A stretch of 64,000 bases of DNA. Source: Acidimicrobiales bacterium. Lineage in GTDB: Bacteria > Actinomycetota > Acidimicrobiia > Acidimicrobiales > Palsa-688. Positions 1,705-49,018 of the stretch are shown here, one piece after another. The stretch's first letter is position 1; each line of letters begins with the position of its first letter. Location: NCBI GenBank assembly GCA_036378675.1, contig DASUWA010000051.1:1-64000 (forward strand), in the 5' to 3' direction. The notes under the pieces are model-generated. The model did no database searches, had not been told where the DNA came from, and saw nothing but the letters and a program-made list of their open reading frames with translations. Both the position numbers and the translations under genes were made by a program.

Positions 1705-3282
1705 ATGACCACTCGTGGGCGGGTATGCACAAGAACGGGCGCGGCGGCTGCATCGGTGGCCACCCTTCTGACTCTGAGCATTGGCGCGGCGTTGACTCGT
1801 ACGGTTATCGACCCGGTCCAACGAAGCGCTCACGGCGCGAGCATGCACGGGACGGCTCACCAGACGAATCTGGCGCAATCACCGGACATGCTCTCGACCC
1901 GCCTGGCTCTAAGCCATATGCCGGCGGGCTCCCCAACGGTTCGTTACAGCGGGGCCAGATCGGTCGGTGAGGGCATCCGCACCGGGGGCAACGGTTTCTG
2001 GGCCGCCTATCCGAACGGGACCGTGGTAGCCGACTCGCCGGCCCCCGTCCTCGGCGATATGACCGGGACACAGTTGACCCGTCCAATCGTCGGCTCTGCC
2101 CTCACTCCGAGCAGCAACGGTTATTGGCTGGTGGCAAGCGACGGAGGAGTTTTCACGTTTGGTGATGCGGGTTTCTTCGGTTCGACGGGAGCAGAGAGGT
2201 TGAACCAGCCGGTCGTGGGGATGGCTTCCACTCCTGACGGTCGTGGTTATTGGTTGGTGGCAAGCGACGGAGGAGTCTTCACGTTTGGTGATGCGGGTTT
2301 CTTCGGTTCGACGGGAGCAGAGAGGTTGAACCAGCCGGTCGTGGGGATGGCTTCCACTCCTGACGGTCGTGGTTATTGGTTGGTGGCGAGTGACGGTGGG
2401 ATCTTCACATTTGGTGACGCAGGTTTCTACGGTTCGACGGGAGCCCAGAGGTTGAACCAACCCGTGTCGGGAATGGCCACGACGCCCGACAGCCACGGCT
2501 ACTGGCTGGTGGCAAGGGACGGCGGCGTCTTCACGTTCGGTGACGCACAGTTCCACGGTTCCGCCGCCAACAATTTCCCTGCTAACGGGCAGCATGCGGT
2601 CGGAATCACCAGCGCCGGCAACGGCGGCTACTGGCTCGCAACCGACACCGGCAGCGTTGCATCCATGGACGCTCCCCTGACAGCGTCCTCGACCGGATCG
2701 GGGCCTCCGGGTTCGAGCCAGCTTCCTCCCAACCAGGATCCGGCTCGGTCGATGCCGCCATCGGGGGACTTCTACTCCGCCTGCTTCAGCAACTCGTACA
2801 GCGCGTCGGCTTGCGACAAGTCTGCTCTGTCCAACATCGACTCCGCACTGTCAGGCGAGGGTTACGGGCCGCTCTCTCTACCTTCCAACTACGGCAGCCT
2901 CTCGACGATCGCTCAGCTTGTCGCGGTCGCGAATGCAGAACGAGCAGTGCGCGGGCTCCCCCAGATGCCCGAGAACTCGAATCTGGATTCGATGGCTTAC
3001 AACGGTGCGCGCAACAACACCGACCCGACCGGCCCGGCCGGATACACGTGGGGATCGAACCTGGCCATGGGATATCCGACCGCGCTGTCGGCGGACTATG
3101 TGTGGATGTACGACGACGGGGCTAACAGCCCGAACGTCGACTGCCAGTCAGCCGGCGATCCGGGTTGCTGGGGTCACCGCCACAACGTTCTCATCCAGGG
3201 CGGCGGTGAGTCCGGCGGTGGGTTGTACAACGACAACGGCACCCTCAACCTGACCCAGCTCTTCGTCGTGAACTACCGGTAG
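1705..3282 (+). CDS. Secreted repeat protein with C-terminal CAP/SCP-like domain
   Basis: This is a 525-residue exported protein. A basic N-terminus followed by a hydrophobic stretch (residues 9-31) looks like a signal peptide. Residues about 90-330 are built from 42-residue repeats with the core GYWLVASDGGVFTFGDA, a repeat common in secreted acidimicrobial proteins and probably forming a beta-propeller or solenoid. The C-terminal part (about 370-525) resembles a CAP/SCP domain: LVAVANAERAVRGLP, a YTWGSNLA segment and GHRHNVL with candidate metal-binding histidines. Substrate and role are unknown; surface binding through the repeats with a catalytic or ligand-binding CAP domain is an inference. 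It is convergent with the DivIVA-like gene, with only 6 bp between stops. The start is uncertain because no clear ribosome binding site is visible. Confidence 0.8.
   Translation: MTTRGRVCTRTGAAAASVATLLTLSIGAALTRTVIDPVQRSAHGASMHGTAHQTNLAQSPDMLSTRLALSHMPAGSPTVRYSGARSVGEGIRTGGNGFWAAYPNGTVVADSPAPVLGDMTGTQLTRPIVGSALTPSSNGYWLVASDGGVFTFGDAGFFGSTGAERLNQPVVGMASTPDGRGYWLVASDGGVFTFGDAGFFGSTGAERLNQPVVGMASTPDGRGYWLVASDGGIFTFGDAGFYGSTGAQRLNQPVSGMATTPDSHGYWLVARDGGVFTFGDAQFHGSAANNFPANGQHAVGITSAGNGGYWLATDTGSVASMDAPLTASSTGSGPPGSSQLPPNQDPARSMPPSGDFYSACFSNSYSASACDKSALSNIDSALSGEGYGPLSLPSNYGSLSTIAQLVAVANAERAVRGLPQMPENSNLDSMAYNGARNNTDPTGPAGYTWGSNLAMGYPTALSADYVWMYDDGANSPNVDCQSAGDPGCWGHRHNVLIQGGGESGGGLYNDNGTLNLTQLFVVNYR
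2119..2622 (+). repeat. 126-bp in-frame tandem repeats (four units)
   Basis: Units begin at 2119, 2245, 2371 and 2497 with an exact 126-bp (42-codon) period. The first two are almost identical at DNA level, including synonymous positions, while the fourth has diverged. This suggests recent duplication or gene conversion within the coding region. Confidence 0.9.
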
Positions 3283-17102: not shown

Positions 17103-19067
17103 ATGTTCCGGGGGAAGCGCGAACGGGAGGATCGGCGTGACGCCGAAGCTCCGCGGGCGCGGCGGGCAACTGTCTCGGACCGTTCGGTTTGGGATCGCCT
17201 TGGCGGAAAGTCCTGCTGGGGACGCTGTGCAGCGGCCGTCGTCGCCACTTCGGCCGCGTTTCTGTCGTCACTCTTGGTAGGAACCGGCGGCGCTTCAGCC
17301 GCCGAGTCGACGCAGCCCGTGATCGTCCTTACGAACGGAACCTCCGACGCAGCGGGCGCGGCGCAGGCCGTCGGTGCCTCCGTGCTTCGAAGTTTTCCGG
17401 ATCTCGGTGCGGCTGAGGTATCGGTCAGCGGCGCCGGGTTGGCCACCCTCGCGAGCTCTCCCGACGTCACAACCATCCCGGACGTTCCGATCTCGTTGCA
17501 GGGCGGCCCCGTAGCTTCCACCTCGCCACATGTCCCCTCAGCGGTGTTCTCGCAGGAGACCGGCGCCGACCAACTCGCTCAGTCGGGCGACACCGGTCAG
17601 GGCGTCGCCATCGCAGTCCTCGACACGGGTATCGCCAACCTTCCTGATTTCTCCGGCCGATTGGTCGGGGGCGTTGACCTCACCGGCGAAGGCAACCCGT
17701 TCTTCGACGGTTTCGGTCACGGAACCTTCGTGGCGGGTCTGGTGGCTGGTAACGGCGCCTCGTCGGGCGGTCAGTATCACGGAGAGGCGCCCGCCGCGAA
17801 CCTCGTATCGGTGAAGGTCGCCGGGGTGACCGGGACCACCACCTTGAGCAGGGTCATCGCCGGCGTCGAGTGGGCCATAGACCACAAGGACCAGTACGGC
17901 ATAAAGGTCCTCAACATGTCGGTCGGGTTCCAGTCGTTCACGTCGACCCTCCGCAACCCTCTCGACAGGGCGGTAGAGGCGGCGTGGAACGCTGGAATCG
18001 CGGTTGTCGCGTCAGCCGGCAACGCCGGGCCTTTCAACGGGACGATCCTGTCGCCCGGTGACGACCCTCTGGTCATCACGGTCGGGGCGCTCGACGACAT
18101 GGCGACGCCATCGGTCTCCGACGACACGATGACCGATTTCAGCAGCGTCGGGCCGACAGCAGCGGACGGCTGGGTCAAGCCCGATCTGGTCACGTCCGGA
18201 CGCTCGGTTATCAGCGTCGCTGCGCCGGGCTCGACCGTCTACGACCTGTTTCCCTCGGCACGCATCGGCTCGGGGAACTTCAAGGGGTCAGGAACCTCGT
18301 TCAGCGCAGCCATAACCAGCGGCGCGGCGGCCCTGGTCCTTGCAGACAATCCGGGCATCACTCCGAATCAGCTGAAGGCCCGGTTGCTGGGCAACGCAGG
18401 ACCCGGCCCGGTCGGAAACCCGTTCGTGGATGGGCACGGCGCACTCAACGCATATACAGCCGCCACCTCCGCGCCTATGGACCTCCACCAATCGACCGAT
18501 GGGTTGCGGCCGACCCGACCGGGCAGCACCGTCTCGTTGGTTCCGACCGGCTCGGTCGACACCTGGAATCCGGCGATCTGGTCGGGCGCCGCCTGGAATG
18601 GTGCTGCTTGGAACGGTGCTGCGTGGAACGGCGCGGCGTGGAACGGCGCCGCTTGGAACGGCTTCACCTTGTCGGGCGCTGCTTGGAACGGTGCTGCGTG
18701 GAACGGCGCCGCTTGGAACGGTGCCGCGTGGAACGGTGCTGCCTGGAATGGTGCGGCGTGGAACGGCAGCTCCTGGACAGGAGCAGCTTGGAACGCAAGC
18801 GCACTGAGCGGTGCCGCTTGGAACGGCGCTGCTTGGAACGGCGCTGCTTGGAACGGCGCTGCGTGGAACGGTGCTGCGTGGAACGGTGCGGCGTGGAACG
18901 GCGCGGCGTGGAACGGTGCGGCCTGGAACGGCGCGGCCTGGAACGGTGCGGCCTGGAACGGTGCGGCCTGGAACGGTGCGGCTTGGAACGGTGCGGCTTG
19001 GAACGGTGCGGCTTGGAATGGGGCGGCTTGGAACGGTGCGGCCTGGAACGCTTCCAGTTGGAGCTAG
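17103..19067 (+). CDS. Subtilisin-like (S8) peptidase with GAAWN repeat tail
   Basis: This 654-residue secreted serine peptidase has an unusually long basic N-terminus before a hydrophobic signal or anchor (about 40-65). A propeptide-like region follows, then the S8 domain with Asp in AIAVLDTGIANLP, His in GHGTFVAGLVAG and Ser in GSGTSFSAAITSGAAALVL. From residue about 495 to the end the protein is an almost pure pentapeptide repeat, GAAWN, about 28 copies with three interruptions. The ATG follows GAGGA. The tail may mediate cell-wall attachment, substrate binding or self-assembly; no function is assigned. The next gene may start within the repeat DNA. Confidence 0.9.
   Translation: MFRGKREREDRRDAEAPRARRATVSDRSVWDRLGGKSCWGRCAAAVVATSAAFLSSLLVGTGGASAAESTQPVIVLTNGTSDAAGAAQAVGASVLRSFPDLGAAEVSVSGAGLATLASSPDVTTIPDVPISLQGGPVASTSPHVPSAVFSQETGADQLAQSGDTGQGVAIAVLDTGIANLPDFSGRLVGGVDLTGEGNPFFDGFGHGTFVAGLVAGNGASSGGQYHGEAPAANLVSVKVAGVTGTTTLSRVIAGVEWAIDHKDQYGIKVLNMSVGFQSFTSTLRNPLDRAVEAAWNAGIAVVASAGNAGPFNGTILSPGDDPLVITVGALDDMATPSVSDDTMTDFSSVGPTAADGWVKPDLVTSGRSVISVAAPGSTVYDLFPSARIGSGNFKGSGTSFSAAITSGAAALVLADNPGITPNQLKARLLGNAGPGPVGNPFVDGHGALNAYTAATSAPMDLHQSTDGLRPTRPGSTVSLVPTGSVDTWNPAIWSGAAWNGAAWNGAAWNGAAWNGAAWNGFTLSGAAWNGAAWNGAAWNGAAWNGAAWNGAAWNGSSWTGAAWNASALSGAAWNGAAWNGAAWNGAAWNGAAWNGAAWNGAAWNGAAWNGAAWNGAAWNGAAWNGAAWNGAAWNGAAWNGAAWNGAAWNASSWS
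18585..19049 (+). repeat. 15-bp minisatellite encoding (GAAWN)n
   Basis: About 28 copies of a 15-bp unit (GG-N-GC-N-GC-N-TGGAA-Y) run in frame, broken by three short non-repeat pieces (FTLS, SSWT and ASALS). Variation is nearly all at third codon positions, so the peptide is conserved while the DNA drifts. This points to selection on the peptide. Confidence 0.95.
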
Positions 19068-26045: not shown

Positions 26046-27122
26046 GTGCCTGCCGCTCTGCCAATCCTGATCGGAGTCCTGCTACTGGCGGTGACCGCGC
26101 ACACCCTGGGCTTCTTTTTCCTGAGGCGTGCTGTAGACGGCCGAGGTAAGTCCCTGCAGGAGTCGCTGATTCGCAACGTCAGGTGGCCTTCGCGGCTGAT
26201 CATCCCCCTGGCGGCGGTCGAAATCGCGCTCGCCGGCGTGAAGCTCGGCGCCCGCCTGCGCGACGACCTCCTCCGCGCCGTTGGAATAGCGCTCGTCTTC
26301 GCCATCGGCTTCCTGGTCGTGAGGCTGACGTACGTCTTCGACGACGTCATCCTCGCCCGGTACCAGCTCGACGTGACCGACAATCTGAAGGCACGTCGCA
26401 TCCACACCCAGATCCAGGTGCTCAGACGGGTGACGGTGGTCGTGGTGTCGATCGTCTCGATCGCGATTGTTCTGTTGAGCATCCCCCGGGTGCGTGCCGC
26501 CGGGGCAGGCCTGCTCGCGTCAGCCGGCGTGCTGGGCCTCGTGGCCGGCGTCGCCGCCCGACCGACGGCCACCAACCTGGTCGCCGGACTGCAGCTTGCC
26601 ATCAGCCAGCCGATTCGCGTCGATGACGTGGTCGTCGTCGAGGACCATTGGGGAAGGGTGGAGCAGATCGCGCTCACCTATGTGGTGGTCCGGCTGTGGG
26701 ACCTTCGCCGCCTGGTCCTGCCTATCTCGTACTTCATCCAGAACCCGTTCGAGAACTGGACCCGCTCCACCGCAGACATCCTCGGCTATGTCTTCCTCCA
26801 AGTGGACTTCTCGGCGCCGGTCGATCAGATCCGGGCCCGGTTCGAGGAGATCCTGCGGCGTTCACCCGACTGGGACGGCAAGGTGGGGATCATGCAGGTC
26901 ACCGACTCTGGGGAGAACACGATGCAGCTCCGCGCCCTGATGAGCTCACCCGACAGCGCGAGGTCATTTGACCTCCAGTGCGCGGTGCGGGAGCAGCTGA
27001 TCGCTTACCTGCGTAGCGAACATCCTGGCGCGCTCCCCCGGACGAGGTCCGAGCTGGTTAACACGGAAGGTCATCCCATTTCGGCTAGGGACTTCGAGGC
27101 GGCGTTCCTGGGGCGTCATTAG
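26046..27122 (+). CDS. MscS-family mechanosensitive channel
   Basis: The 358-residue membrane protein has four hydrophobic segments. The last is the Gly/Ala-rich pore helix (RAAGAGLLASAGVLGLVAGVAA), followed by LVAGLQLAISQPIRVDDVVVV, the conserved MscS beta domain, and a C-terminal cytoplasmic region. Such channels open under membrane tension and release solutes on osmotic downshock. The GTG at 26046 is chosen because GAGGAGG lies at 26035-26041; the open frame reaches back to 26007. It is divergent from the ybjQ-like gene. Confidence 0.9.
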   Translation: MPAALPILIGVLLLAVTAHTLGFFFLRRAVDGRGKSLQESLIRNVRWPSRLIIPLAAVEIALAGVKLGARLRDDLLRAVGIALVFAIGFLVVRLTYVFDDVILARYQLDVTDNLKARRIHTQIQVLRRVTVVVVSIVSIAIVLLSIPRVRAAGAGLLASAGVLGLVAGVAARPTATNLVAGLQLAISQPIRVDDVVVVEDHWGRVEQIALTYVVVRLWDLRRLVLPISYFIQNPFENWTRSTADILGYVFLQVDFSAPVDQIRARFEEILRRSPDWDGKVGIMQVTDSGENTMQLRALMSSPDSARSFDLQCAVREQLIAYLRSEHPGALPRTRSELVNTEGHPISARDFEAAFLGRH

Positions 27123-27212
27123 CGGCTGTAGCAATCGTAGGGACGCGCAGGTGATCGAGGCTCCGCCGGTCTGGTATCCCTTGTGAGAACGTCGAGAGGA
27201 GACCGGCCGGAA

Positions 27213-27674
27213 ATGCAGGTAGACGCGATTCTTTGCAATCACGCCGAAGCGGTGAACAATCAGCTGTACATCTCCGGTGGCGGGATCGAGCTGGCCCAGG
27301 CGCCGGCCGGCGCGATTCCGCCGCTCGTTGTCACCTTGGGCATCGGCATGGTCCTGACAGTGGGGTGGGCCCAGACCAACGAGCAGCATCAGATCGACAT
27401 CGAGCTGCTGACCGAGGACGGCATTGCCGTCGACGTACCGACCGGCCCCGGGATCTTCGGGCCCCTGAAAGTTCAGTCATCGTTCAATGTGGGGCGCCCT
27501 CCCACCCTGACGATCGGCGACGACCAGCACGTGTGCCTCGCGGCGAACTTTCCCGGGCTGCCGCTTCCGGTCTTCGGGAAGTACGAGTTCGTGATCAAGG
27601 TCGACGGAGAAGTCGCCAGAACACTTCCTTACCGGGTGGCCGCGGCGAGCCCGACCGGAACGGTCGTCACTTGA
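27213..27674 (+). CDS. DUF6941-like hypothetical protein
   Basis: The 153-residue protein begins MQVDAILCNHAEAVNNQLYISGGGIE, the typical opening of a small actinobacterial family (DUF6941) in which a beta-rich domain starts with a D-x-x-x-C-x-x-A-x-x-x-x-G-K/Q-L pattern. It ends in a beta-sandwich-like FGKYEFVIKVDGE. No enzymatic motif or signal peptide is seen. The ATG at 27213 follows GAGAGGAG; a start at 27183 is also open but lacks such a site. It stands alone between the MscS gene and a GGDEF-EAL gene. Confidence 0.6.
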   Translation: MQVDAILCNHAEAVNNQLYISGGGIELAQAPAGAIPPLVVTLGIGMVLTVGWAQTNEQHQIDIELLTEDGIAVDVPTGPGIFGPLKVQSSFNVGRPPTLTIGDDQHVCLAANFPGLPLPVFGKYEFVIKVDGEVARTLPYRVAAASPTGTVVT

Positions 27675-27832
27675 CCACCGCCGACTCGGGATAGAGGGGA
27701 AGCAAAGGCGCGAGGTGCGCAGTAGAGAAAAGAACGCACCAAAGGCGTCGTTGTTACTCCGTTGACGACTAAGTGAGGTTGCCCGGCCACGATCGGTGCT
27801 AGTTCAGCGAGCCGACAAGGGGTCTAGGGGCA

Positions 27833-30800
27833 GTGAAAGCACTAATCGTCATAGCTGGGATCGCAGCCGTGATCCGCCTCGCGACCGCGCTCGACCCCGG
27901 GGCGACAGCGATCGTCGTCGGGGTCCTGGCTGTTGCAGCAGCCGGCTACGGCTTGTGGTCCAACCGACGCTCGCATTGGGCGGGCTGGCTCGTCTCGTGG
28001 TTTCTCATCGCTGCCGGGCTGGTAACCAACGTCGTGGCCGTCATCGTCCAGGGGTGGCACGGCATCAGGATCGTCCCCGAGGGCACCGTTCCTCTGACGT
28101 TGACCCTGATAGGTGGGGCGTTCGCTGTCGCCGGCCTGGGGTCGTTGTTGCACCAACGCCTTCCAACTCGTCTGGTCGAGTCGCTCTCGGCCGCGGTTGT
28201 GTCAAGCGGAGCCCTCGCCTTTCCGTTGCTCGCCCTCGTCATCGTGCCTTCGCTGGGGTGGCACCCCGGTCGTGAGCTGACAGCCATCGCGCCTCCTCTT
28301 ATGGACATCGTGACGCTGTGGATGTGCGTGTCGATCCTGTCGCTCACGAAGCGCCATCCCGTCGCATATCGCTACCTGCTCGGCGGGTTCCTCTGCGTTT
28401 TCGTTGCCCACTCCGCGGTGGCAGCCTCGCTGTTGGGTGGCTTCAACTCATCCCCGGTTCCTCTCAGTGCGGTTCTGCTGTGGGGGCTGTGCCTGTGGAG
28501 CTGCTCCGTCCTGCATCCCTCTCAGCGGCATGCCCTGGATCCCGTGCCTTTCCGTTCGACCCGCCCCGGATGGATCTACATCGGGCTCATGGTCGTCGGG
28601 GCTTTGGTCCCGCCGGCAGTGCTCTCCGCCAAAGCATTGCTGAAGATTCATAACAGCGTCGCCTTGTTCGCGGCTGGATCTGGAATCCTTCCCCTGCTGA
28701 TCGTTGTCTACTTGACCTATCAGGTCTACACGCGGTCGGCGGCCGAGTACCGGGCTCAGCACGATCCCTTGACCGGCGTGTGCAACCGAGTTCTCTTCAA
28801 CGACCGATTGGAAGCGGCACTCGCGAATTCGCGGCGCACAGGCCACGGTGTCGCGGTCATCTTCTTGGACCTTGATCGGTTCAAGAGCATCAACGACAGT
28901 CTTGGTCACGCAGTCGGGAACCAACTGCTTCAAGCGGTGGTCGCGCGACTGCAGAATCGGTTGAGGCCTCGCGACACGCTTGCTCGTATGGGAGGTGACG
29001 AGTTCACGATCCTCGTGCCCGACCTCGACGGGAAAGCCGTGAGCGCGAACGTCGCGGAAAGGATCCTCGGGGCGTTTTCGGAGCCATTCCACATCGGCGG
29101 GAAGCTCCTACCCGTGCAGGCGAGCATTGGTATCGCCGTTTCGCCTGACGACGGTGACGAGAGCGAGGCTCTTTTCAAGAACGCGGATACTGCGATGTAC
29201 CAGGCGAAGGCGGCCGGTAGGAACACCTACGCCATCTACGACACGGCTATGAGCGCGAGGGCCGAGTTGCGTTTCGCGCTCGAGACCAGCCTGCGAAGCG
29301 CACTCGAGCGCGATCGGCTGGCTGTCCACTACCAGCCGAAGCTGTCGACGATCACGGGCGGGATCGTGGGCGTCGAGGCCCTCGCCCGCTGGCAGCATCC
29401 CCGCCTCGGGTTCATCCCGCCCGCGGCCTTCATCCCTCTGGCGGAGGAAACCAGCCTGATCGCGAGTCTCGGGGAGTGGGTGCTTGAAACCGCGTGCCTC
29501 CAAGCGCGGTCGTGGCAGGCGCAAGGTCTCCCGAGGGTTTCGGTGTCGGTAAACGTGTCGCCCCGCCAGTTCGTTCGTCAGTCTGTCGTTCGGCTGGTCG
29601 CCGACGTCCTCGATCGCACCGGGCTCGACCCCCGGCTCCTCGAGTTGGAAGTAACCGAGAGCGTTCTCGTCGAGCACATGCACGACACGTCGAAGAGCCT
29701 CGAAGAACTTCGATCGATGGGTGTGCGTTGCTCGATCGACGACTTCGGAACCGGATACAGCGCGCTCACATACCTGACCGACATGCCGGTTGACGCCATC
29801 AAGATCGATCCGTCCTTCGTCCGCCGCATCGATGCGACGACCGGGGCGGCCCCCATCGTCGGTGCGGTCATCGATCTTGCGCACAGCCTCGAGCTTCAGG
29901 TCGTCGCTGAGGGCGTAGAAACCGCGGCACAACTCGAGTTCCTGTCGGACCACGCGTGCGATCAAGTCCAGGGGTATTTGTTCAGCCCGCCGGTGCCGCC
30001 AGAGAAGATCGAGGAGTTCCTGCGCGACAAGGATGCGATCTTCGCAGGTGCAGAACTCATCGCATCGCGTCCTGGCGCAGCCTCCACGTCGCTCGTCCTT
30101 CCTCCCGCCAAACTGGCCGGGATCCTGACCGGGCTGAGCCAGAACGGCATTTGGGCCAATCAGCCCGACCGCGAGGATCTCGTGGCGATCCTGTCTGCTC
30201 TGCAATCGGACGACTTGATCACGATCGCCGGTCCCAGGGGTTTCCGTCGGGTTCCGGCCCGTATGGCCCTGGGCACGCTCGCCGGCTTGGCCTCGCTCAC
30301 CGGAGGCCTGAGCGTCGCGGGAAGCATTCCCTCGGTTCGCCAGCTTGCGGGCGACATCCTGCAGCAGGCGACCGGCATCAGCCTCCCGGCCGGCGGCGGT
30401 CCGATTCCGAACACGTCGGGCCGGCTACTGGCGGACCCGAGCAGCGGAGGCGGCCACACTCGTTCAGCGTCGGTATGGGGTGGTTTCCCCAGCCGCACTG
30501 GTCTCGGAGTACACGGTGGCGTGGCTGGTGGAGACACCGCGATGCCGGGTGCGGACACGCAAGCTCCCACGCTCGGCGCGACCCCCGGGCTGGCGGTGAA
30601 CTCCGGTTCGGGCGACGTGCCGGGCGCCGGCGGGTCGTCGTCGGGCGCAGGCGGGTCGGCTTCGGGATCAGGGACTGCTCCCGCCGGTGGAGGGACGCAG
30701 GGCTTCAGCGGCGGCCAGGGCGCCGGCCAAGGGAGCGGCAATGGGGCAGGCCATGGTCAAGGCTCGGGTGGCGGCCAGGGCCAGGGCTCAGGTGGCGGCC

Positions 30801-31771
30801 AGGGCCAAGGCGCCGGTGGCGGCCAGGGCGGAGGCCAGGGTCACGGCTCGGGTGGCGGCCAGGGCGCAGGCCAGGGTCACGGCTCGGGTGGCGGCCAGGG
30901 CGGAGGTCAAGGTTCCGGCGGTGGCACTGGTCAGGGTGGTGGTCAGGGTCAGGGCTCAGGCGGAGGTCAGGGTCACGGTTCCGGTGGCGGCCAGGGTCAA
31001 GGTTCCGGCGGTGGCACCGGTCAGGGTGGTGGTCAGGGGCAGGGCTCAGGCGGAGGTCAGGGTCAAGGTCAGGGCTCGAGTGGCGGGCAGGGCAATGGCA
31101 ACGCGAACGGCTCGAGCCAGGGAAACGGTCAGGGCACGAGCGGTGGAGCCTCTGGTGGTTCGGTGCAGGGCGGCCAAGGAACCGGTCAGGGCCAGGGCCA
31201 GGGCTCTGGCGGCGGGCAAGGCAATGGCACTGCGAACGGAAACGCCAACGGCAAGGGTTCGGGCGGCCAGCAGGGTTCGGGCGGCCAGCAGGGCAGCGGC
31301 AATGGCAACGGCGCTGGCGGTGGCGCGGGGCAGGGGTCGGGGCAGGGCCAGGGCCAGGGTGCCGGTCAGGGCCAGGGCGCAGGCGGTGGCCAGGGCGCAG
31401 GCGGTGCTCAGGGTCAAGGTTCGGGCGGTGGCCAGGGGGCGGGCCAGGGCAACGGCAGCGGCAACGGCGCTGGCCAGGGCTCTGGGCAAGGCCAGGGAGG
31501 TTCCACCGGGAACGGCAACGGCTCCGGTCAGGGACAGGCAGCCGGCGGCGGCCAAACACAGAGCTCCGCGAGTGCCCAAGGCCAGACCCCGGGGACCAGT
31601 GGTCAGGGCCAAGGGACCGGTCATCAGGGATCAGGCTCGGGCACGGGGAACGGTCAGGGCGAGGGCAACGGTGTGCAGTCCTCCCAGACCCAGGGAACCG
31701 GGCAGGGCAACGGCAACCTGAACGGTCAGGGCCAAGGAACCGACAGCGGCAAGGGCAAGGGCCTCGGCTGA
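27833..31771 (+). CDS. Membrane GGDEF-EAL protein with giant Gly/Gln-rich tail
   Basis: The 1312-residue protein has about ten N-terminal membrane spans (residues 1-300). The GGDEF domain follows (HDPLTGVCNRVLFNDRL, ARMGGDEFTILV at about 386, I-site RPRD), then an EAL domain (GVEALARWQHP at about 512, EVTESVL, DDFGTGYSALTY, EGVETAAQ). After the EAL there is a linker with a Gly/Ala-rich hydrophobic stretch (MALGTLAGLASLTGGLSVAGSI, about 810-831) that could be one more membrane span. From about residue 925 the rest is low-complexity GQG, GGG and QGSG repeat. If the extra span is real, the tail would lie outside the cell. The GTG start follows AGGGG. Both c-di-GMP active sites look intact. Confidence 0.88.
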   Translation: MKALIVIAGIAAVIRLATALDPGATAIVVGVLAVAAAGYGLWSNRRSHWAGWLVSWFLIAAGLVTNVVAVIVQGWHGIRIVPEGTVPLTLTLIGGAFAVAGLGSLLHQRLPTRLVESLSAAVVSSGALAFPLLALVIVPSLGWHPGRELTAIAPPLMDIVTLWMCVSILSLTKRHPVAYRYLLGGFLCVFVAHSAVAASLLGGFNSSPVPLSAVLLWGLCLWSCSVLHPSQRHALDPVPFRSTRPGWIYIGLMVVGALVPPAVLSAKALLKIHNSVALFAAGSGILPLLIVVYLTYQVYTRSAAEYRAQHDPLTGVCNRVLFNDRLEAALANSRRTGHGVAVIFLDLDRFKSINDSLGHAVGNQLLQAVVARLQNRLRPRDTLARMGGDEFTILVPDLDGKAVSANVAERILGAFSEPFHIGGKLLPVQASIGIAVSPDDGDESEALFKNADTAMYQAKAAGRNTYAIYDTAMSARAELRFALETSLRSALERDRLAVHYQPKLSTITGGIVGVEALARWQHPRLGFIPPAAFIPLAEETSLIASLGEWVLETACLQARSWQAQGLPRVSVSVNVSPRQFVRQSVVRLVADVLDRTGLDPRLLELEVTESVLVEHMHDTSKSLEELRSMGVRCSIDDFGTGYSALTYLTDMPVDAIKIDPSFVRRIDATTGAAPIVGAVIDLAHSLELQVVAEGVETAAQLEFLSDHACDQVQGYLFSPPVPPEKIEEFLRDKDAIFAGAELIASRPGAASTSLVLPPAKLAGILTGLSQNGIWANQPDREDLVAILSALQSDDLITIAGPRGFRRVPARMALGTLAGLASLTGGLSVAGSIPSVRQLAGDILQQATGISLPAGGGPIPNTSGRLLADPSSGGGHTRSASVWGGFPSRTGLGVHGGVAGGDTAMPGADTQAPTLGATPGLAVNSGSGDVPGAGGSSSGAGGSASGSGTAPAGGGTQGFSGGQGAGQGSGNGAGHGQGSGGGQGQGSGGGQGQGAGGGQGGGQGHGSGGGQGAGQGHGSGGGQGGGQGSGGGTGQGGGQGQGSGGGQGHGSGGGQGQGSGGGTGQGGGQGQGSGGGQGQGQGSSGGQGNGNANGSSQGNGQGTSGGASGGSVQGGQGTGQGQGQGSGGGQGNGTANGNANGKGSGGQQGSGGQQGSGNGNGAGGGAGQGSGQGQGQGAGQGQGAGGGQGAGGAQGQGSGGGQGAGQGNGSGNGAGQGSGQGQGGSTGNGNGSGQGQAAGGGQTQSSASAQGQTPGTSGQGQGTGHQGSGSGTGNGQGEGNGVQSSQTQGTGQGNGNLNGQGQGTDSGKGKGLG
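30605..31760 (+). repeat. Gly/Gln/Ser low-complexity coding repeat
   Basis: About 1.15 kb of imperfect short repeats (units such as GGTGGCGGCCAGGGC and CAGGGTCAAGGTTCCGGC) encode Gly, Gln, Ser, Asn and Ala. The frame stays open with no stop. Period and order vary, so the tract looks like a product of repeated slippage or unequal exchange kept under coding constraint. Confidence 0.9.
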
Positions 31772-31779
31772 AACCCTCC

Positions 31780-31899
31780 GCGCCTGCGTTTCGTAACACT
31801 CAACTTCGGCAACCACGCGACTTTGTTGCAAACCTGCTGCTATTCAGCAACTTCGTAGCACTCTTGCCGGCGCAGGCGCTAGCACTGTTACGAAGTTGC
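31780..31899. repeat. Nested inverted repeats downstream of the Gly-tail gene
   Basis: GCAACTTCGTA (31847-31857) and TACGAAGTTGC (31889-31899) form a perfect 11-bp inverted repeat. GCGCCTGCG (31780-31788) and CGCAGGCGC (31871-31879) form a second one that interleaves with it. A partial third CAACTTCG copy is at 31801-31808. It may be a terminator-like structure, an operator array or a small mobile-repeat remnant. No ORF lies here. Confidence 0.6.
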
Positions 31900-32050
31900 G
31901 CAATCGGGGGGCTGACCCGCCACCACCCGCCACCCGTGCCCCCAGGGGCCCACCTGCAGGCGCAAACCCTGGCCGCGAGCCAGTGGTGTTCCCTCGACCG
32001 GGCTGAGTCGGTAGTTTGGCGCGCAGGCGACACGTTGAAAGGGCGGAAAG

Positions 32051-33955
32051 ATGTTCTCCAAGGTGTTTCGGCGCGCGTGCGCAATGGCGGTGGCTATCGG
32101 TTTGGTCGGCGTAGGCGGTCTAGCGGTTGGTACTTCATACAGGGCCGCTGCAACCCCACCGGCCAGCGTGCAAGTGCAAGGCAACCAGCTCGTCGATGGT
32201 TCCGGTAATCCAATTCGGCTGGTTGGCGTCGACCGCTCCGGGACCGAGTACGCGTGTGCCCAGGGGTGGGGGATCTTCGACGGTCCATCAGACCAAGGGT
32301 CGATCCAGGCGATCAGCTCGTGGCATGTGAACGCTGTGCGGGTGCCTTTGAACGAGGATTGCTGGCTGGGCATCAACGGCGTGAACCCGTCGTACTCCGG
32401 CGCCAACTACCAGACCGCGATCGAGAACTACGTGTCGCAACTGCACGCGGCAGGCATGATGGCAATCCTCGATCTGCATTGGTCGGCACCGGGGGGCCAA
32501 CTTGCGTTGGGTCAGCAAATGATGGCGGACTCGGATCACTCGCCGGCGTTCTGGACTTCCGTCGCGAGTGCGTTCAAGGCGGATCGAGGCGTCGCCTTCG
32601 ATCTGTACAACGAACCGCACGACATATCCTGGTCCTGCTGGTTGAACGGCTGCGTCACTTCGGCTGGCTGGCGGGCCGCCGGGATGCAAAGCCTGCTGAA
32701 CTCGGTGCGATCGACCGGTGCCACCCAGCCGGTGATGGTGGCCGGGCTCAACTGGGCGGGTGACCTTTCGGGCTGGCTTCAAAACGAGCCCAACGATCCT
32801 TCCAATCAACTCGCAGCATCCGCTCACATCTACAACTACAGCCAGTGCAACACGCCGGGCTGCTGGGACTCGACGATCGCTCCGGTGGCCGCGCAAGCGC
32901 CGGTGGTTACGGGTGAACTAGGTGAGACCGACTGCGCGCGCGGGTTCATTGACTCCTACATGGCCTGGGCGGACGCGCACGGCCTGTCGTATCTCGGTTG
33001 GAGCTGGAACACGGCCTCGTGCGGCTCGGGGCCGGCTCTCATCACCTCGTACAACGGCACCCCTACCGCGTTCGGTGCTGGCTACCAATCACACCTCGCC
33101 GCCATCGCCTCCCAACCGTCGGGTGGAGGTGTCTACGTTCTGGACGGTTACGGCAATCTCGACCCCGAGACGAACCCTGGCGGGCCTGCACGGGTCGCCA
33201 CGTCCGACACTTGGTCGGGTTGGAACATCGCACGAGGAGCCGCCGGCCTTCCTGACGACACCGGCGGATACACGCTGGACGGTTGGGGCGGTGTTCATCC
33301 GTTTGCGATCGGCTCGAATCCCATGCCTCCCGCCGCAACCACGTCGGACTATTGGCCTGAGTGGGACATCGCAAGGTCGGTAGCGCTCCTTCCGTCGGGA
33401 CAGGGCGGGTACGTCTTGGACGGATGGGGTGGTGTGCACCCGTTCGCCATCGGGTCGAACCCGATGCCTCCCGCTGCGAGCGCTTCGGCGTACTGGCCGG
33501 AGAAGGACATCGCCCGCTCGATCGTCGTCCTCCCTTCCGGAACCGGCGGCTATGTGCTTGACGGCTACGGCGGAGTTCATCCGTTCGCGGTCGGGTCGAA
33601 CCCGATGCCCGCGGCGGCCGTGACTTCGGCCTCGTGGTCTGGTTGGGACATCGCCCGCTCATTGACTTTGCTGCCGTCGGGCAGCGGCGGGTACGTGGTT
33701 GACGGATGGGGAGGGGTTCATCCCTTCGCGACCGGCTCCAGCCCGATGCCGCCGGCAGTGAACAGCAGCGGCTACTGGCCTTACCAGGACGTGGCGCGCG
33801 GCGTCGCGCTCAACAGCGCAGGGACGGTCGGATACGTCGATACCACCTCGGGCCAGGTTGCAACGTTCGCGGTCAGCGGCTCGGCCGCGCCGTCAGCCGG
33901 CACGGCGAACATCCCGTCCGGCGCGGTCGGCCGTGCGATCCTCGTGACTTCATGA
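32051..33955 (+). CDS. Secreted GH5-family glycoside hydrolase with C-terminal repeats
   Basis: The 634-residue protein has a signal peptide (MFSKVFRRACAMAVAIGLVG, cleavage near AAA about residue 34). Its GH5 (cellulase-like) barrel has the acid/base Glu188 in DLYNEPH and the nucleophile Glu289 in VVTGELGE, plus the usual RVPLNEDCW and ILDLHWSAPGG segments. It probably cleaves beta-1,4-glucan or mannan. From about residue 375 to 600 it carries repeats of the type GGYVLDGWGGVHPFAIGSNP, spaced by WP..DIARS.., which resemble the other secreted repeats here and may bind sugar or the cell surface. It ends one base before the convergent neighbour's stop. Confidence 0.85.
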   Translation: MFSKVFRRACAMAVAIGLVGVGGLAVGTSYRAAATPPASVQVQGNQLVDGSGNPIRLVGVDRSGTEYACAQGWGIFDGPSDQGSIQAISSWHVNAVRVPLNEDCWLGINGVNPSYSGANYQTAIENYVSQLHAAGMMAILDLHWSAPGGQLALGQQMMADSDHSPAFWTSVASAFKADRGVAFDLYNEPHDISWSCWLNGCVTSAGWRAAGMQSLLNSVRSTGATQPVMVAGLNWAGDLSGWLQNEPNDPSNQLAASAHIYNYSQCNTPGCWDSTIAPVAAQAPVVTGELGETDCARGFIDSYMAWADAHGLSYLGWSWNTASCGSGPALITSYNGTPTAFGAGYQSHLAAIASQPSGGGVYVLDGYGNLDPETNPGGPARVATSDTWSGWNIARGAAGLPDDTGGYTLDGWGGVHPFAIGSNPMPPAATTSDYWPEWDIARSVALLPSGQGGYVLDGWGGVHPFAIGSNPMPPAASASAYWPEKDIARSIVVLPSGTGGYVLDGYGGVHPFAVGSNPMPAAAVTSASWSGWDIARSLTLLPSGSGGYVVDGWGGVHPFATGSSPMPPAVNSSGYWPYQDVARGVALNSAGTVGYVDTTSGQVATFAVSGSAAPSAGTANIPSGAVGRAILVTS

Positions 33956-34557: not shown

Positions 34558-37188
34558 TCAGCTGGTGATCGGCTCCGGGAGCAGGTTTTTCAGCGCCTCG
34601 CACATCTCTGCTCGCACGGGTGCGCCCGAGATGACGACACCAACCATGGGGACGGAAGTGTGAACGTGCCCTCGAGCCCGGACGTGCGTGACCGGGACGC
34701 CGGCGGCGGCGAGGGCTTCGGAGTAGGCGATGCCTTCGTCACGCAAGGGGTCGAAGTCGGCGGTGACGACGACGGCAGGGGGCAGCCCCGCCAGGTTCCC
34801 TCTGAGCGGTGAAGCGGCCGGATTCGTGCGGTCTCGCTCGTCGGCGTAATTGTCCCAGAACCACCGCATCAGCGACGCGGTAAGCATGTAGCCCTCGCCG
34901 TTCTCACGCAGCGATGGCCGGTCCGGATTCCAGTCGGTAACCGGCATCAGCAGGAGTTGGGCGGCGATGGCCGGCCCTCCGGCGTCTCTGGCCCGCTGGG
35001 TGGCGACAGCGGCGACATTCCCGCCGGCGCTCCACCCTCCGACTGCCAGATGCCCGGGGATGCCGCCAAGCTCTGCGGCGTTGGCTGCCAGCCACTGCAC
35101 CGCGGCGAAGGCGTCATCGGCCGCCGCGGGAAAACGCTCCTCGGGTGCGTGGCGGTAGTTCACCGACACGATCAGCATTCCGGTCCGTGCGCAGATGTCG
35201 CGGCACAAAGGCTCGTCGGAGTCCTTGCTGCCGAGCACCCACCCCCCGCCGTGGAAATACGCCATGACCGGGTGTGGACCCGGCGTGGGGGGTCGGTACA
35301 GGCGGAACTCGAGGTCGCCGGCGGCACCTGGCAACTTGCCGTCGACGATCTCGCCGACCTCGGGTCCGGGCGGCCGGGCGGCGTTCGTCGCCTCCATGAA
35401 ATCGCGCGCCTCCTGCGGGCTCATCGTCTCGATGGGAGGCAGGTTCAGCGATTCCATCATCTCGAGCACGATGGCGACGTCGGGCTGCATGGTCCGGATG
35501 ATCCCGTCGTTGTGCAGAGATCGGGCGGGACCGTCCAGCCTGAAACCGAGGTGCCCCCGCTCGACGATCTCGTTGCAGGTCTTTCGGTAGCTGTCGAACC
35601 CGCCTACGTACGGCAGGAAAACCCGTGGCTTCCCAGGCACATTCGCCCCCATATACCACGAGTTCGCCCGCGGGAACAGGGTGATGTCTGCGCAGTCGTG
35701 GTTGTGCTGCACCCAGCCGGCCTCGGCAAGGGGTGTCGGCTCGATCCGATCGAAGCCCTCGGCCCGCATGTAATCGAGACGGTCGGCGACCCAGTCCACG
35801 TGCTGCTCGATGGACACGACCATGTTGGAAAGGACCGACGGGCTCTGCGGACCGGTGATGGTGAAGAAGTTTGGGAAGCCCGTGGTCATGAGGCCGAGGT
35901 AGGTGGTGGGCCCGTCCGCCCACTTTTGCTTCAAGGTGAGCCCGCCCACGCCGGTGATGTCCACCGAGACGAGAGGCCCAGTCATCGCGTCGAAACCCGT
36001 CGCGAAAACGATGGCGTCGAACTCGAACGACTCGGTGCTGGTGTCTATCCCGGTCTCGGTGATCGCCTCGAGCGGCGTCTTTCGCAAGTCGACCAGCCGC
36101 ACGTGGGGAAGGTTGAAGGTCTCGTAGTAATCGGTGTCGAGACACGCCCGCTTCGTACCGATCGGAAATCCGCTGGGGCAGAGCGCCTCAGCGGTCTCGG
36201 GGTCTTTGACGGTCTGGCGGACCTTCTCACGGAACAGATCCGCCACCATTTCGTTGACCACCGGGTTCGACAGCTGATCGATGAATATGCCCGTGATCGC
36301 GAGCAGCTCACCCCGCTCCCACGCAGCCTCGAAACGCCCGCGCCGTTGCTCCTCCGTGGCGGTGAGACCCGACAGCTCCGGCATCTCGTACGGCATGCCC
36401 GCCCGGGAGTTCCGGGCCGCTTCCCGGTAGCCCTCTCGGTTCCTGGCGAGAGAGGCGAGCCGTTCGGGGGACGCCGGACCGTTGCGCGCCGGGAACGAGA
36501 AGTTCGGGGTCCGCTGGAACACGACCAGCTGCGACGCTTCCTTGGCGATCAGCGGGATCGACTGGATACCGGACGACCCGGTCCCGATGACGGCGACCCT
36601 CTTCCCGGTGAAGTCGATCTTCTCGTGCGGCCACCGGCCAGTGAAAAAAACTTCGCCGCCGAAGCGGCTCACGCCCTCGATATCCGGATCCTTCGGTACC
36701 GATAAGCAGCCCGTCGCCATGACGTAGTGCCGGCATTCAATTCCGTCGCCCGCGTCGGTCTTGAGCAGCCACCGGCGCGCATCCTCGTCCCACGTCGCCG
36801 AGGAGATTCTCGTGTTGAACCTCATGTCCTTGCGGAGATCAAAGCGGTCGGCGACGTGGCCCAGGTAGGAGAGGATCTCCGGCTGGGTCGCGTACTTCTC
36901 CGACCACGTCCATTCCTTCTCGAGCTCGGGGTCGAAGCTGTAGGAGTAGTCCGTGGTCGGGATGTCGCAGCGTGCGCCCGGGTAGCGGTTCCAGTACCAC
37001 GTGCCGCCGACGTCGCTTGCCTGATCCACGACGACGGTCGAAAATCCCAGGTTCCGCAGACGGTGGAGCATGTACAGCCCCGCGAAACCCGCTCCGACGA
37101 CGACCACGTCAACCTTCTTTGGCCCGAAGTTTGGTGGCGTCGTCGCCGATCCGTTACCCGACACGGCCATCCGTCCCCCGATCGTCAT
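34558..37188 (-). CDS. Baeyer-Villiger-type monooxygenase fused to an alpha/beta-hydrolase
   Basis: The 876-residue protein joins two enzymes. Residues about 1-575 are a flavin monooxygenase: an FAD Rossmann motif ([21 protein letters not shown]), the Baeyer-Villiger fingerprint variant [11 protein letters not shown] (FxGxxxHxxxD), and an NADPH Rossmann motif ([12 protein letters not shown]). Residues about 590-876 are an HSL-type esterase: HGGGWVLGS (about 646), nucleophile Ser720 in GGWSAGGN, Asp near 811 in TADFDP, and a His near 841. The monooxygenase would turn a ketone into an ester and the hydrolase would cleave it. The frame is uninterrupted across the junction. An in-frame ATG at 37170 is an alternative start. 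Confidence 0.88.
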
Positions 37189-40042: not shown

Positions 40043-47650
<7,608 letters not shown>

Positions 47651-47746: not shown

Positions 47747-49018
47747 CTAAGCGGCAGGATGCTCCCCGGCGATCAGGTACCCGGTGCCTCCAGGCGCCGG
47801 AACCAGGCCGAAATAGCGGTTCGTTCCGCCCGAGCCGCCGCGGGATCCGTAGTAGCCGGCGTCTCCGAAGGTGAAGATGCCTCCGTCGGCGGCGGCGAGC
47901 CAGTAGCCGTGGCCGTCTGGGGTGGGTGCCATCGCGACGACGGGCTGGTTGAGTCGTGTGGCGCCGGTGGATCCGTAGTAGCCGGCGTCTCCGAAGGTGA
48001 AGATGCCTCCGTCGGCGGCGGCGAGCCAGTAGCCGTGGCCGTCTGGGGTGGGTGCCATCGCGACGACGGGCTGGTTGAGCCGCGTCCCGCCCATAGATCC
48101 GTAGTACGGCGAGGCACCGGTCGCGAAAACCCCACCGTCGGAGGCGGTGAGCCAGTAACCGGGTGCGCTTGGGTCGAGCGCAGCCCCCACGAACGGGAGG
48201 TTCGAAAGAATCGGCGTCGTCGCCGGAAGCGCTGAGCCGAACGCGTACAGGTCGCTTATCACCGGACCGGCCCACGGGTTCCGCTCGCAGATGGGCACGA
48301 ACGAGTAACCACGGGCGCGAAGCGAGGCGATGATCTGTGGGAGAGCGTCGACCGTCTCCTGGCGGTTCCCGCCCCCGTCGTGCAGGTCCACCACCCCGCC
48401 AGGGAACGCAGCGCCTACAACCCGGTCGACGATCGCCTGGGTGCCCGGCATGGTCCAGTCCCGAGGGTCGATGGAGTAGCTCATCGTGGTCAGCCCTCGC
48501 TGAGCCGTCTGTTCGAGCGAGGTCCCGTTCCAGCTGTTGTAGGGAGGGCGCACGCAAGTTGGCGTGACGCCTGTCAGGAGACGAATCCGATTCTGGGTCT
48601 GGTCGATCTGGGTCGGATAACCGCTCACCGGCAGCGTCGCCAAGTCAACGTGATTCCACGTGTGGTTCTCGACCGGATACCCGGCCGCGGCCAGTTGCCT
48701 GGTGTACTGCGGGTAGCCGAGCGTGTTGACGCCTATCTCGAAGAAGGTCGCGGGAACCCGATAGCGCTGAAGCACAGAGAGAACCTCAGGGGTATAAGGC
48801 CCGGGACCATCGTCGAAGGTCAGGGCGATCACCCTGCGGCCGGCCGTGTTCTGTTCTCCGGGCGCCTGGAAGGTGTAGAAGGCGGGGCTTGGGGATACGG
48901 AGGCCGCGCCGACCGTTTCGCTTCCGAAGGCGGCCGAACTGATCGGAAGAAACGCGACCGTGCTGAAGATCGCCGACACGACGGTCGCGGATAACAACGA
49001 CGCTCGCTGACGCTTCAA
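47747..49018 (-). CDS. Secreted polysaccharide deacetylase with C-terminal repeats
   Basis: With the TTG start at 49018 the protein has 423 residues and a signal peptide (LLSATVVSAIFSTVAFLPISSAAF). The NodB-type deacetylase domain has motif 1 ALTFDDGPGPYTPEV, motif 2 ENHTWNHVD and motif 3 RPPYNSWNG, fitting a metal-dependent carbohydrate esterase 4 that acts on chitin, xylan or peptidoglycan. The C-terminal 150 residues hold repeats GYWLAAADGGIFTFGDAGYY of the same type as the protein at 1705, two of them almost identical in DNA. The frame is open to 49165, but that part overlaps the ferredoxin gene. Confidence 0.86.
   Translation of the reverse strand: MKRQRASLLSATVVSAIFSTVAFLPISSAAFGSETVGAASVSPSPAFYTFQAPGEQNTAGRRVIALTFDDGPGPYTPEVLSVLQRYRVPATFFEIGVNTLGYPQYTRQLAAAGYPVENHTWNHVDLATLPVSGYPTQIDQTQNRIRLLTGVTPTCVRPPYNSWNGTSLEQTAQRGLTTMSYSIDPRDWTMPGTQAIVDRVVGAAFPGGVVDLHDGGGNRQETVDALPQIIASLRARGYSFVPICERNPWAGPVISDLYAFGSALPATTPILSNLPFVGAALDPSAPGYWLTASDGGVFATGASPYYGSMGGTRLNQPVVAMAPTPDGHGYWLAAADGGIFTFGDAGYYGSTGATRLNQPVVAMAPTPDGHGYWLAAADGGIFTFGDAGYYGSRGGSGGTNRYFGLVPAPGGTGYLIAGEHPAA

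Follow-up and report, generated by a model that had tools for sequence, protein, structure and literature searches.

The stretch of DNA that we analysed (64,000 nucleotides, hereafter the window) carries on its forward strand an ORF (27833-31771, its parts described below lying on the same strand) that starts at a GTG codon, contains no internal stop and encodes 1312 residues. An N-terminal membrane domain with ten hydrophobic spans predicted by hydropathy (27833-28714, residues 1-294) is followed by a GGDEF domain (28754-29224, residues 308-464; Pfam PF00990, E = 1.9e-49) and an EAL domain (29288-29992, residues 486-720; PF00563, E = 1.3e-76), both above the Pfam cut-offs, and no other Pfam family was matched in the ORF at E up to 1. 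The GGDEF motif lies at residue 387, with an RxxD motif immediately upstream that is presumably inhibitory-site-like, and the EAL, DDFGTG, K and E motifs, which together with GGDEF we take to be the catalytic motif list of such enzymes, are all intact at their motif positions in the EAL domain. Judged from these domains and motifs, the product is a membrane GGDEF-EAL c-di-GMP enzyme. The neighbouring ORFs encode a DUF6941 protein and an MscS-type channel (upstream) and a GH5 cellulase and a product without Pfam match (downstream); no sigma factor gene was found among these four when scanned, and a promoter and terminator scan of 27000-32300 returned nothing above shuffled sequences. Relatives of the N-terminal membrane domain occur in 7 of 397 genomes of the order, its own included, with no plasmid match at E 1e-5, and no relative turned up when named genomes were scanned.

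The protein stands out by what follows the EAL domain: 594 residues, versus 5-57 in 18 other GGDEF-EAL ORFs found by motif scan (15 from 28 scanned loci of relatives, two of which, L032 and L034, have identical ends, and three in the window). This C-terminal portion comprises a clade-conserved post-EAL region (30080-30259, residues 750-809), a Gly/Ala-rich hydrophobic segment (30263-30319, residues 811-829), a juxtamembrane stretch with the motif G-x-[LI]-P-x3-[QR] and the residues next to it (30320-30397, residues 830-855), and a low-complexity, nearly uncharged Gly/Gln/Ser/Asn tail (30599-31768, residues 923-1312). The initial annotation, which had described a complete GGDEF-EAL protein continuing without a stop into a Gly/Gln/Ser tail of about 390 residues, was thus correct: the domains are intact, the frame is open and the tail measures 390 residues.

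Half of the tail (50%) is Gly (194 G, 69 Q, 45 S, 25 A and 21 N, with 3 K, 0 R, 2 D, 1 E and no Cys), and it holds a single aromatic and six charged residues. Tandem repeats run throughout. When repeat units at least 80% alike were compared, mismatches at codon positions 1, 2 and 3 numbered 37, 36 and 149 of 391 compared pairs each, the comparisons being overlapping and not independent. Other reading frames across the region are open too; since the unit mismatches concentrate at codon position 3, the annotated frame is the constrained one, and the tail reading frame is under protein-level constraint. Three further repeat arrays in the window showed the same codon-position pattern. Searched against its own genome, the tail matched only itself.

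Across the 397 genomes of the order, the hydrophobic segment is present in six GGDEF-EAL proteins, which come from five genomes (six of the nine family proteins read; the paralogue C33, the G075 protein and the distant G085 protein are without the span). No other part of the post-EAL region is as well conserved, the closest orthologue (63%, genome G007) sharing PARxAxGTLAGLASxTGGLxxAG. The tails behind the segment range from 4 to about 458 residues. Counted from 25 residues past the span, the tail is almost absent from the G007 protein (4 residues) and from one of two proteins of genome G120 (G120b, 6 residues); the other, G120a, has a second long tail of 260 residues, and that of G366 reaches at least 106 residues before the contig end cuts it. 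Conservation of the long tail was not borne out, because the closest orthologue ends just after the segment. Such variation would be expected if the tail were a neutral repeat expansion, that is, a low-complexity end outside the membrane drifting in length by slippage and having little function, and both the tandem repeats all along it and the lack of visible sequence conservation between the relatives' tails fit this view. We nevertheless consider it somewhat unlikely, since the roughly fourfold excess of unit mismatches at third codon positions means that the composition has been kept, and long tails recur in G120a and G366.

The initial annotation had also proposed an extra membrane span after the EAL domain, at about 30262-30327, and this proposal gained in plausibility. 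On a membrane-insertion scale for 19-residue stretches, the segment (MALGTLAGLASLTGGLSVA, residues 811-829, nucleotides 30263-30319) has a value of 2.96, compared with 0.06-5.43 for the N-terminal spans and 8.04 for the lowest stretch of the GGDEF-EAL core. Four K/R residues lie in the 15 residues preceding it and one after it, and K/R are commoner before than after the segment in all six proteins. The segment is also conserved, and by profile it matches the single span of the sigma-partner proteins described below. It is thus probably an 11th membrane span, as far as sequence features indicate, although it is Gly-rich and in three relatives (G268, G120a and G120b) exceeds the core only slightly in hydrophobicity. 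A single-sequence fold of residues 725-880 was uninformative (pLDDT 41). A signal peptide starting at the ATG at 30263 was considered separately and rejected, because the G007 protein keeps the same segment without the ATG and without the tail.

None of the results spoke for an adhesive, structural or phase-separating scaffold, the idea raised by the initial annotation. Relatives of the C-terminal module point instead to a module common with a family of small membrane proteins, which have one membrane span, a G-x-L-P-x3-Q juxtamembrane motif and a low-complexity tail, and whose genes sit just downstream of ECF sigma factor genes. This arrangement was found at all 30 loci of the family (profile A6) that had DNA, four of which were seeds of A6, one of these being also a seed of the sigma profile; three of the upstream sigma genes were confirmed by Pfam. 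Of 198 genomes of the order, 72 contain a match to the family, including that of the window, which has a sigma-partner-like gene at C65:51697-52050. Scanned members gave no Pfam match (seven members) and no credible NCBIfam match (three members), and we regard the members of the family as putative anti-sigma factors.

The link came from a profile of the six post-EAL regions (A3) run against the 397 genomes, which strongly recovered the six proteins it was built from and a portion of the G075 protein, followed by 36 weak rows. An ECF sigma gene lay upstream on the same strand in 14 of the 24 weak rows that had DNA, three of the 14 being genes used to build the sigma profile. A reverse profile built without any GGDEF protein (A4) matched the module in the window at 1.2e-5, with no other match from that genome up to E 0.1; for G120 the E-value was 2.4e-7, and matches to G268 and G007 were weak (0.010 and 0.098). 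As the A4 members were picked from A3 hits, the comparison of the two profiles is not blind, and E-values alone are to be discounted, because the Ala/Gly-rich A4 gives spurious low values on repetitive PDB chains (in a PDB profile search all matches were spurious and fell on designed repeat-containing proteins or unrelated chains). Controlled alignments argue in the same direction: the hhalign score of A3 against A4 was 62.8, as opposed to 14.3 and 15.4 for the reversed profiles and at most 13.3 for nine windows taken from the other spans of the protein itself, and 30 column shuffles gave E 0.068 or worse. The signal resides in one half of the module. The membrane half scored 43.9 against 30 sigma-partner modules (100 shuffles, at most 19.0), whereas the N-terminal half scored 14.8, with 15.8 and 14.9 for reversed profiles and at most 14.6 for 100 shuffles; the A6 profile extended into the N-terminal half in both proteins of G120 (positions 7-121 and 22-117), compared with only 72-123 in the window protein. 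The span and the juxtamembrane motif of the family were both recognised by profile, weakly for G007 and G268, and a low-complexity tail lies behind the span in the window protein as in the sigma-partners, two of whose tails contain GQGQG runs. We conclude that homology to the sigma-partner proteins is shown for the membrane and juxtamembrane half only, the sigma-side half being not above controls. The sigma-partners differ from our protein in that they are ORFs of about 226-422 residues behind an ECF sigma gene, whereas here the module lies behind a GGDEF-EAL enzyme whose ORF is not directly downstream of such a gene.

The Gly-rich segment and its low margin over the core in three relatives could also be explained by a surface-associated or re-entrant hairpin, which would leave the tail in the cytosol, a flexible arm that might form condensates or bind partners, and a cytosolic disordered region that drives condensates has been described for Rho of Bacteroides (PMC13059805). 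The profile matches, in both directions, with the one span of the sigma-partner proteins and the K/R excess before the segment in all six proteins argue against this topology, and a tail so poor in aromatic and charged residues would hardly form sticker-type condensates; we therefore regard this alternative as unlikely. That two genes were joined by an error in sequencing or assembly is highly improbable. The repeats, the draft state of the genome (75 contigs) and a G007 orthologue ending ahead of the tail might suggest such an error, and the initial annotation had allowed for it, but the frame is open and constrained all through and the element recurs in independent genomes, G120a having another long tail and G366 the beginning of one.

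The reading that we favour, and to which we give about an even chance, is that of a polytopic GGDEF-EAL enzyme carrying a C-terminal module homologous to the membrane half of ECF sigma-partner proteins, that is, a single span, a short juxtamembrane motif and a length-variable low-complexity tail. If the module is common with theirs, the segment would cross the membrane and the tail would end up outside, as a disordered strand that may extend into the cell wall and report envelope state: whether it is stretched, bound or cut would be relayed via the span to the preceding EAL and GGDEF domains, with c-di-GMP turnover, not sigma release, as the output. More tentatively, a c-di-GMP enzyme may have acquired the sensory half, with its membrane span, of a protein of the ECF anti-sigma type, so that a disordered strand penetrating the wall would govern a second messenger where it otherwise governs a sigma factor. 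In this version, which we regard as doubtful, sigma factor binding might even persist in the post-EAL region, and a single protein would then have both outputs.

None of the papers listed by our searches of the open-access literature showed this architecture in its title or in the opening of its abstract. LapD-type GGDEF-EAL receptors also couple a c-di-GMP protein through the membrane to an outside part, but theirs is N-terminal and folded, whereas the one proposed for our protein would be disordered and at the C-terminus. In most c-di-GMP enzymes the sensor lies ahead of the catalytic domains. Streptomyces RmdB is likewise a multi-span membrane GGDEF-EAL protein by description, a phosphodiesterase with eight predicted spans and its EAL domain at residues 426-670 that acts directly on a sigma/anti-sigma pair and binds the sigma factor WhiG via its GGDEF domain; the description consulted mentions no C-terminal span or tail (PMC13232838). 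Akin to what we propose, the membrane protein RsgI of Bacillus has a disordered region on the outside that has been put forward as a cell-wall sensor, although the output of RsgI is the release of sigma I (PMC13059805, PMC10128001); the likeness is one of description, such a region being predicted here from composition and topology.

A C-terminal span with a disordered strand outside would represent a different input position for a c-di-GMP enzyme, and a shared module would show one membrane-tail device coupled to two outputs, ECF sigma factors and c-di-GMP. As the partner family, encoded beside sigma genes, is matched in so many genomes of the order, the role of such tails is testable in many species. 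Taken together, our results suggest that some input from outside could feed straight into the c-di-GMP signal.

The open reading frame at 27833-31771 (+) encodes 1312 residues, in which a Pfam scan at E up to 1 matched a GGDEF domain (residues 308-464), an EAL domain (residues 486-720) and nothing else; by hydropathy, ten hydrophobic segments precede the GGDEF domain. The Gly/Ala-rich hydrophobic segment pointed out in the initial annotation lies at residues 811-829, and the final 390 residues are half Gly, with Gln, Ser, Ala, Asn and Thr making up most of the remainder; they include three Lys, two Asp, one Glu and one aromatic residue, and neither Arg nor Cys. The initial annotation of a c-di-GMP protein that runs into a long low-complexity tail is thus borne out by a single frame. 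Directly behind this gene lies a GH5 cellulase (32051-33955, +; E 1.4e-32) that holds repeats of about 47 residues and is not present at the corresponding place in G007, the genome of the nearest orthologue. An ORF at 34558-37188 (-) combines a flavin monooxygenase-like part with an alpha/beta-hydrolase (Abhydrolase_3 by Pfam, E 2.4e-72), and in G007 a gene resembling it lies about 116 bp behind the GGDEF-EAL gene, in the same direction.

As several frames are open across the GC-rich repeat, we compared repeat units with one another, within stretches at least 80% alike. Mismatches in the tail numbered 37, 36 and 149 at codon positions 1, 2 and 3 (391 compared pairs each, from overlapping and hence not independent comparisons), and the same pattern was seen in the array of an S8 protease (46, 64 and 480 of 1246), in the GH5 repeats (4, 2 and 25 of 51) and in a set of 42-residue repeats (4, 2 and 12 of 75). 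Part of the third-position excess could stem from a common composition instead of real homology between repeats; from either source, it marks the protein frame of the tail. The S8 protease is a subtilase (17103-19067, +; Peptidase_S8 by Pfam, E 1.6e-43) that closes with about 30 pentapeptide repeats of the AAWNG type (18594-19050), and the 42-residue (126-bp) repeats occur at two sites, 47835-48161 and 1705-3282, where they read GYWLVASDGGVFTFGDA in a protein with no Pfam match. Elsewhere in the window, a ribosomal protein L10-like ORF (196-894, by eye) is separated by about 39 kb and many other genes from rpoB/rpoC (40043-47650, by Pfam), of which the L10 gene is usually a close neighbour.

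A motif scan of the window and 28 relatives' loci recognised 19 GGDEF-EAL ORFs (the present one, three more from the window, and 15 of the relatives' loci contributing one apiece); past the end-of-EAL motif the ORF at 27833-31771 extends for 594 residues, compared to 5-57 in the 18 others. With the N-terminal domain as query, G007 was the sole match besides the window genome among 32 family genomes, the window genome itself holding a paralogue on contig C33; seven of 397 order genomes, its own included, gave a match with at most five candidates scored per genome, and its own was the only match in 396 phylum genomes. The hydrophobic segment is present in six of the nine family proteins read (window, G007, G366, G268, G120a and G120b) and absent from C33, G075 and the distant G085. 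Residues lying more than 25 positions past this span number 458 in the window protein, 260 in G120a, at least 106 in G366 (which ends at a contig end), 31 in G268, 6 in G120b and 4 in G007; conservation thus extends to the segment but not to the long tail. On a nine-protein tree rooted at midpoint only, with G085 as a long branch, the module would have changed at least three times, for example by one gain and two losses.

On a membrane-insertion scale, the score of the segment is 2.96 for the window protein and 2.36 to 4.21 for the five others. In the window protein, G007 and G366 the core nowhere scores below 7.18, but its minimum is 4.0-4.6 in G268, G120a and G120b, so that the margin is small in the latter three. 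The 15 residues preceding the segment and the 15 following it contain 4/1, 3/1, 2/1, 4/1, 3/1 and 3/1 Lys plus Arg in the six proteins. The extra span suggested initially, here a C-terminal one that would put the tail outside, is the likelier topology, although it stays unproven.

The six post-EAL regions were built into a profile (A3) and searched against 397 genomes, with at most 12 candidates scored per genome. Its own six proteins, being its seeds, naturally came first (2.3e-31 or better); G075 followed, matched over its first half at 1e-10, and then came a drop to 36 weak rows (1.7e-5 to 0.01, among the matches listed), 24 of them with DNA. An ECF sigma gene lies upstream on the same strand in 14 of these 24 (three of the 14 sigma genes being seeds of the sigma profile), no same-strand sigma gene was found for nine, and L083 sits at a contig edge; Pfam identifies three upstream genes as sigma factors. 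The sigma-adjacent matches share an order of parts, from a short N-terminus through basic residues and a single span (insertion score 0.8-3.4 in the 14) to a motif and a low-complexity tail; two of these tails end in PGQPGQGQGQGQGQGSGNR and TPPGQGGQGQGGSPG. By loose regex, a G-[LMF]-A-x-A-G-x-L-P-x3-Q-like motif is present at 12 of the 14 loci (L077, L078, L079, L080, L081, L085, L087, L088, L089, L090, L095 and L098) and at L083, and absent from L082 and L094. In the phylum sample, A3 matched at E up to 0.001 in six genomes besides the window's; these open frames (163-545 aa) all show span and motif by eye, four have a sigma gene upstream, and none resembles a GGDEF-EAL protein.

A second profile (A4), of ten sigma-adjacent proteins chosen from the A3 matches and including no GGDEF protein, aligned with A3 in hhalign at a score of 62.8 (probability 97%), compared to 14.3 and 15.4 for reversed profiles and at most 13.3 for nine windows of the protein's own N-terminal domain; 30 column shuffles gave E 0.068 or worse. 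Because of how A4 was chosen, its reverse search of seven genomes weighs more: it found the window module at 1.2e-5, the sole match in its genome at E up to 0.1, the G120 proteins at 2.4e-7 and 9e-4, G366 at 5.6e-6 and, more weakly, G268 (0.010) and G007 (0.098). It missed a partner-like ORF of the window genome (C65), later picked up at 1.1e-14 by A6, a profile of six sigma-partner proteins (putative anti-sigma factors; threshold E up to 0.001) whose rows also include two G120 enzymes (5.2e-9 and 6.7e-6) and the window protein (4.0e-5). Since A4 also assigns spuriously low E-values to repetitive chains of the PDB, much of the weight rests on gene neighbourhood, on which sequence bias has no bearing: an ECF sigma gene lies upstream at all 30 A6 loci with DNA, four of which (L129-L132) are A6 seeds and one, L132, also a sigma-profile seed. 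The partner family itself (L115, L116, L125, L126, L128 and L129-L158), with one span, G-x-L-P-x3-Q and low-complexity tails, is matched by A6 in 72 of 198 order genomes, with no Pfam match in seven members scanned and no credible NCBIfam match in three.

Against the 30 A6 loci, the membrane half of A3 scored 43.9 (100 shuffles, at most 19.0), and the N-terminal half, at 14.8, was no better than its controls (15.8 and 14.9 with reversed profiles, at most 14.6 with shuffled ones). Since this sigma-side half gave no score clear of the controls and the four neighbouring ORFs scanned hold no sigma gene, the protein is not assigned as an anti-sigma factor. A reported precedent for a GGDEF-EAL enzyme directly touching sigma control is RmdB, which binds the sigma factor WhiG and prevents its anti-sigma factor from binding (PMC13232838).

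The constituent parts are of known kinds, and their combination, a membrane GGDEF-EAL enzyme with a membrane-tail module, was not found in searches of the open-access literature judged by title or start of abstract. The cytosolic enzyme would lie between two membrane parts. Direct sensing, like the nature of the signal and the sign of its effect, is inferred. In the simplest reading, the outside strand would report envelope state through its span to the EAL domain beside it, in the way that the anti-sigma factor RsgI has been proposed to use its disordered region, which would extend into the wall and sense defects there (PMC13059805, PMC10128001).
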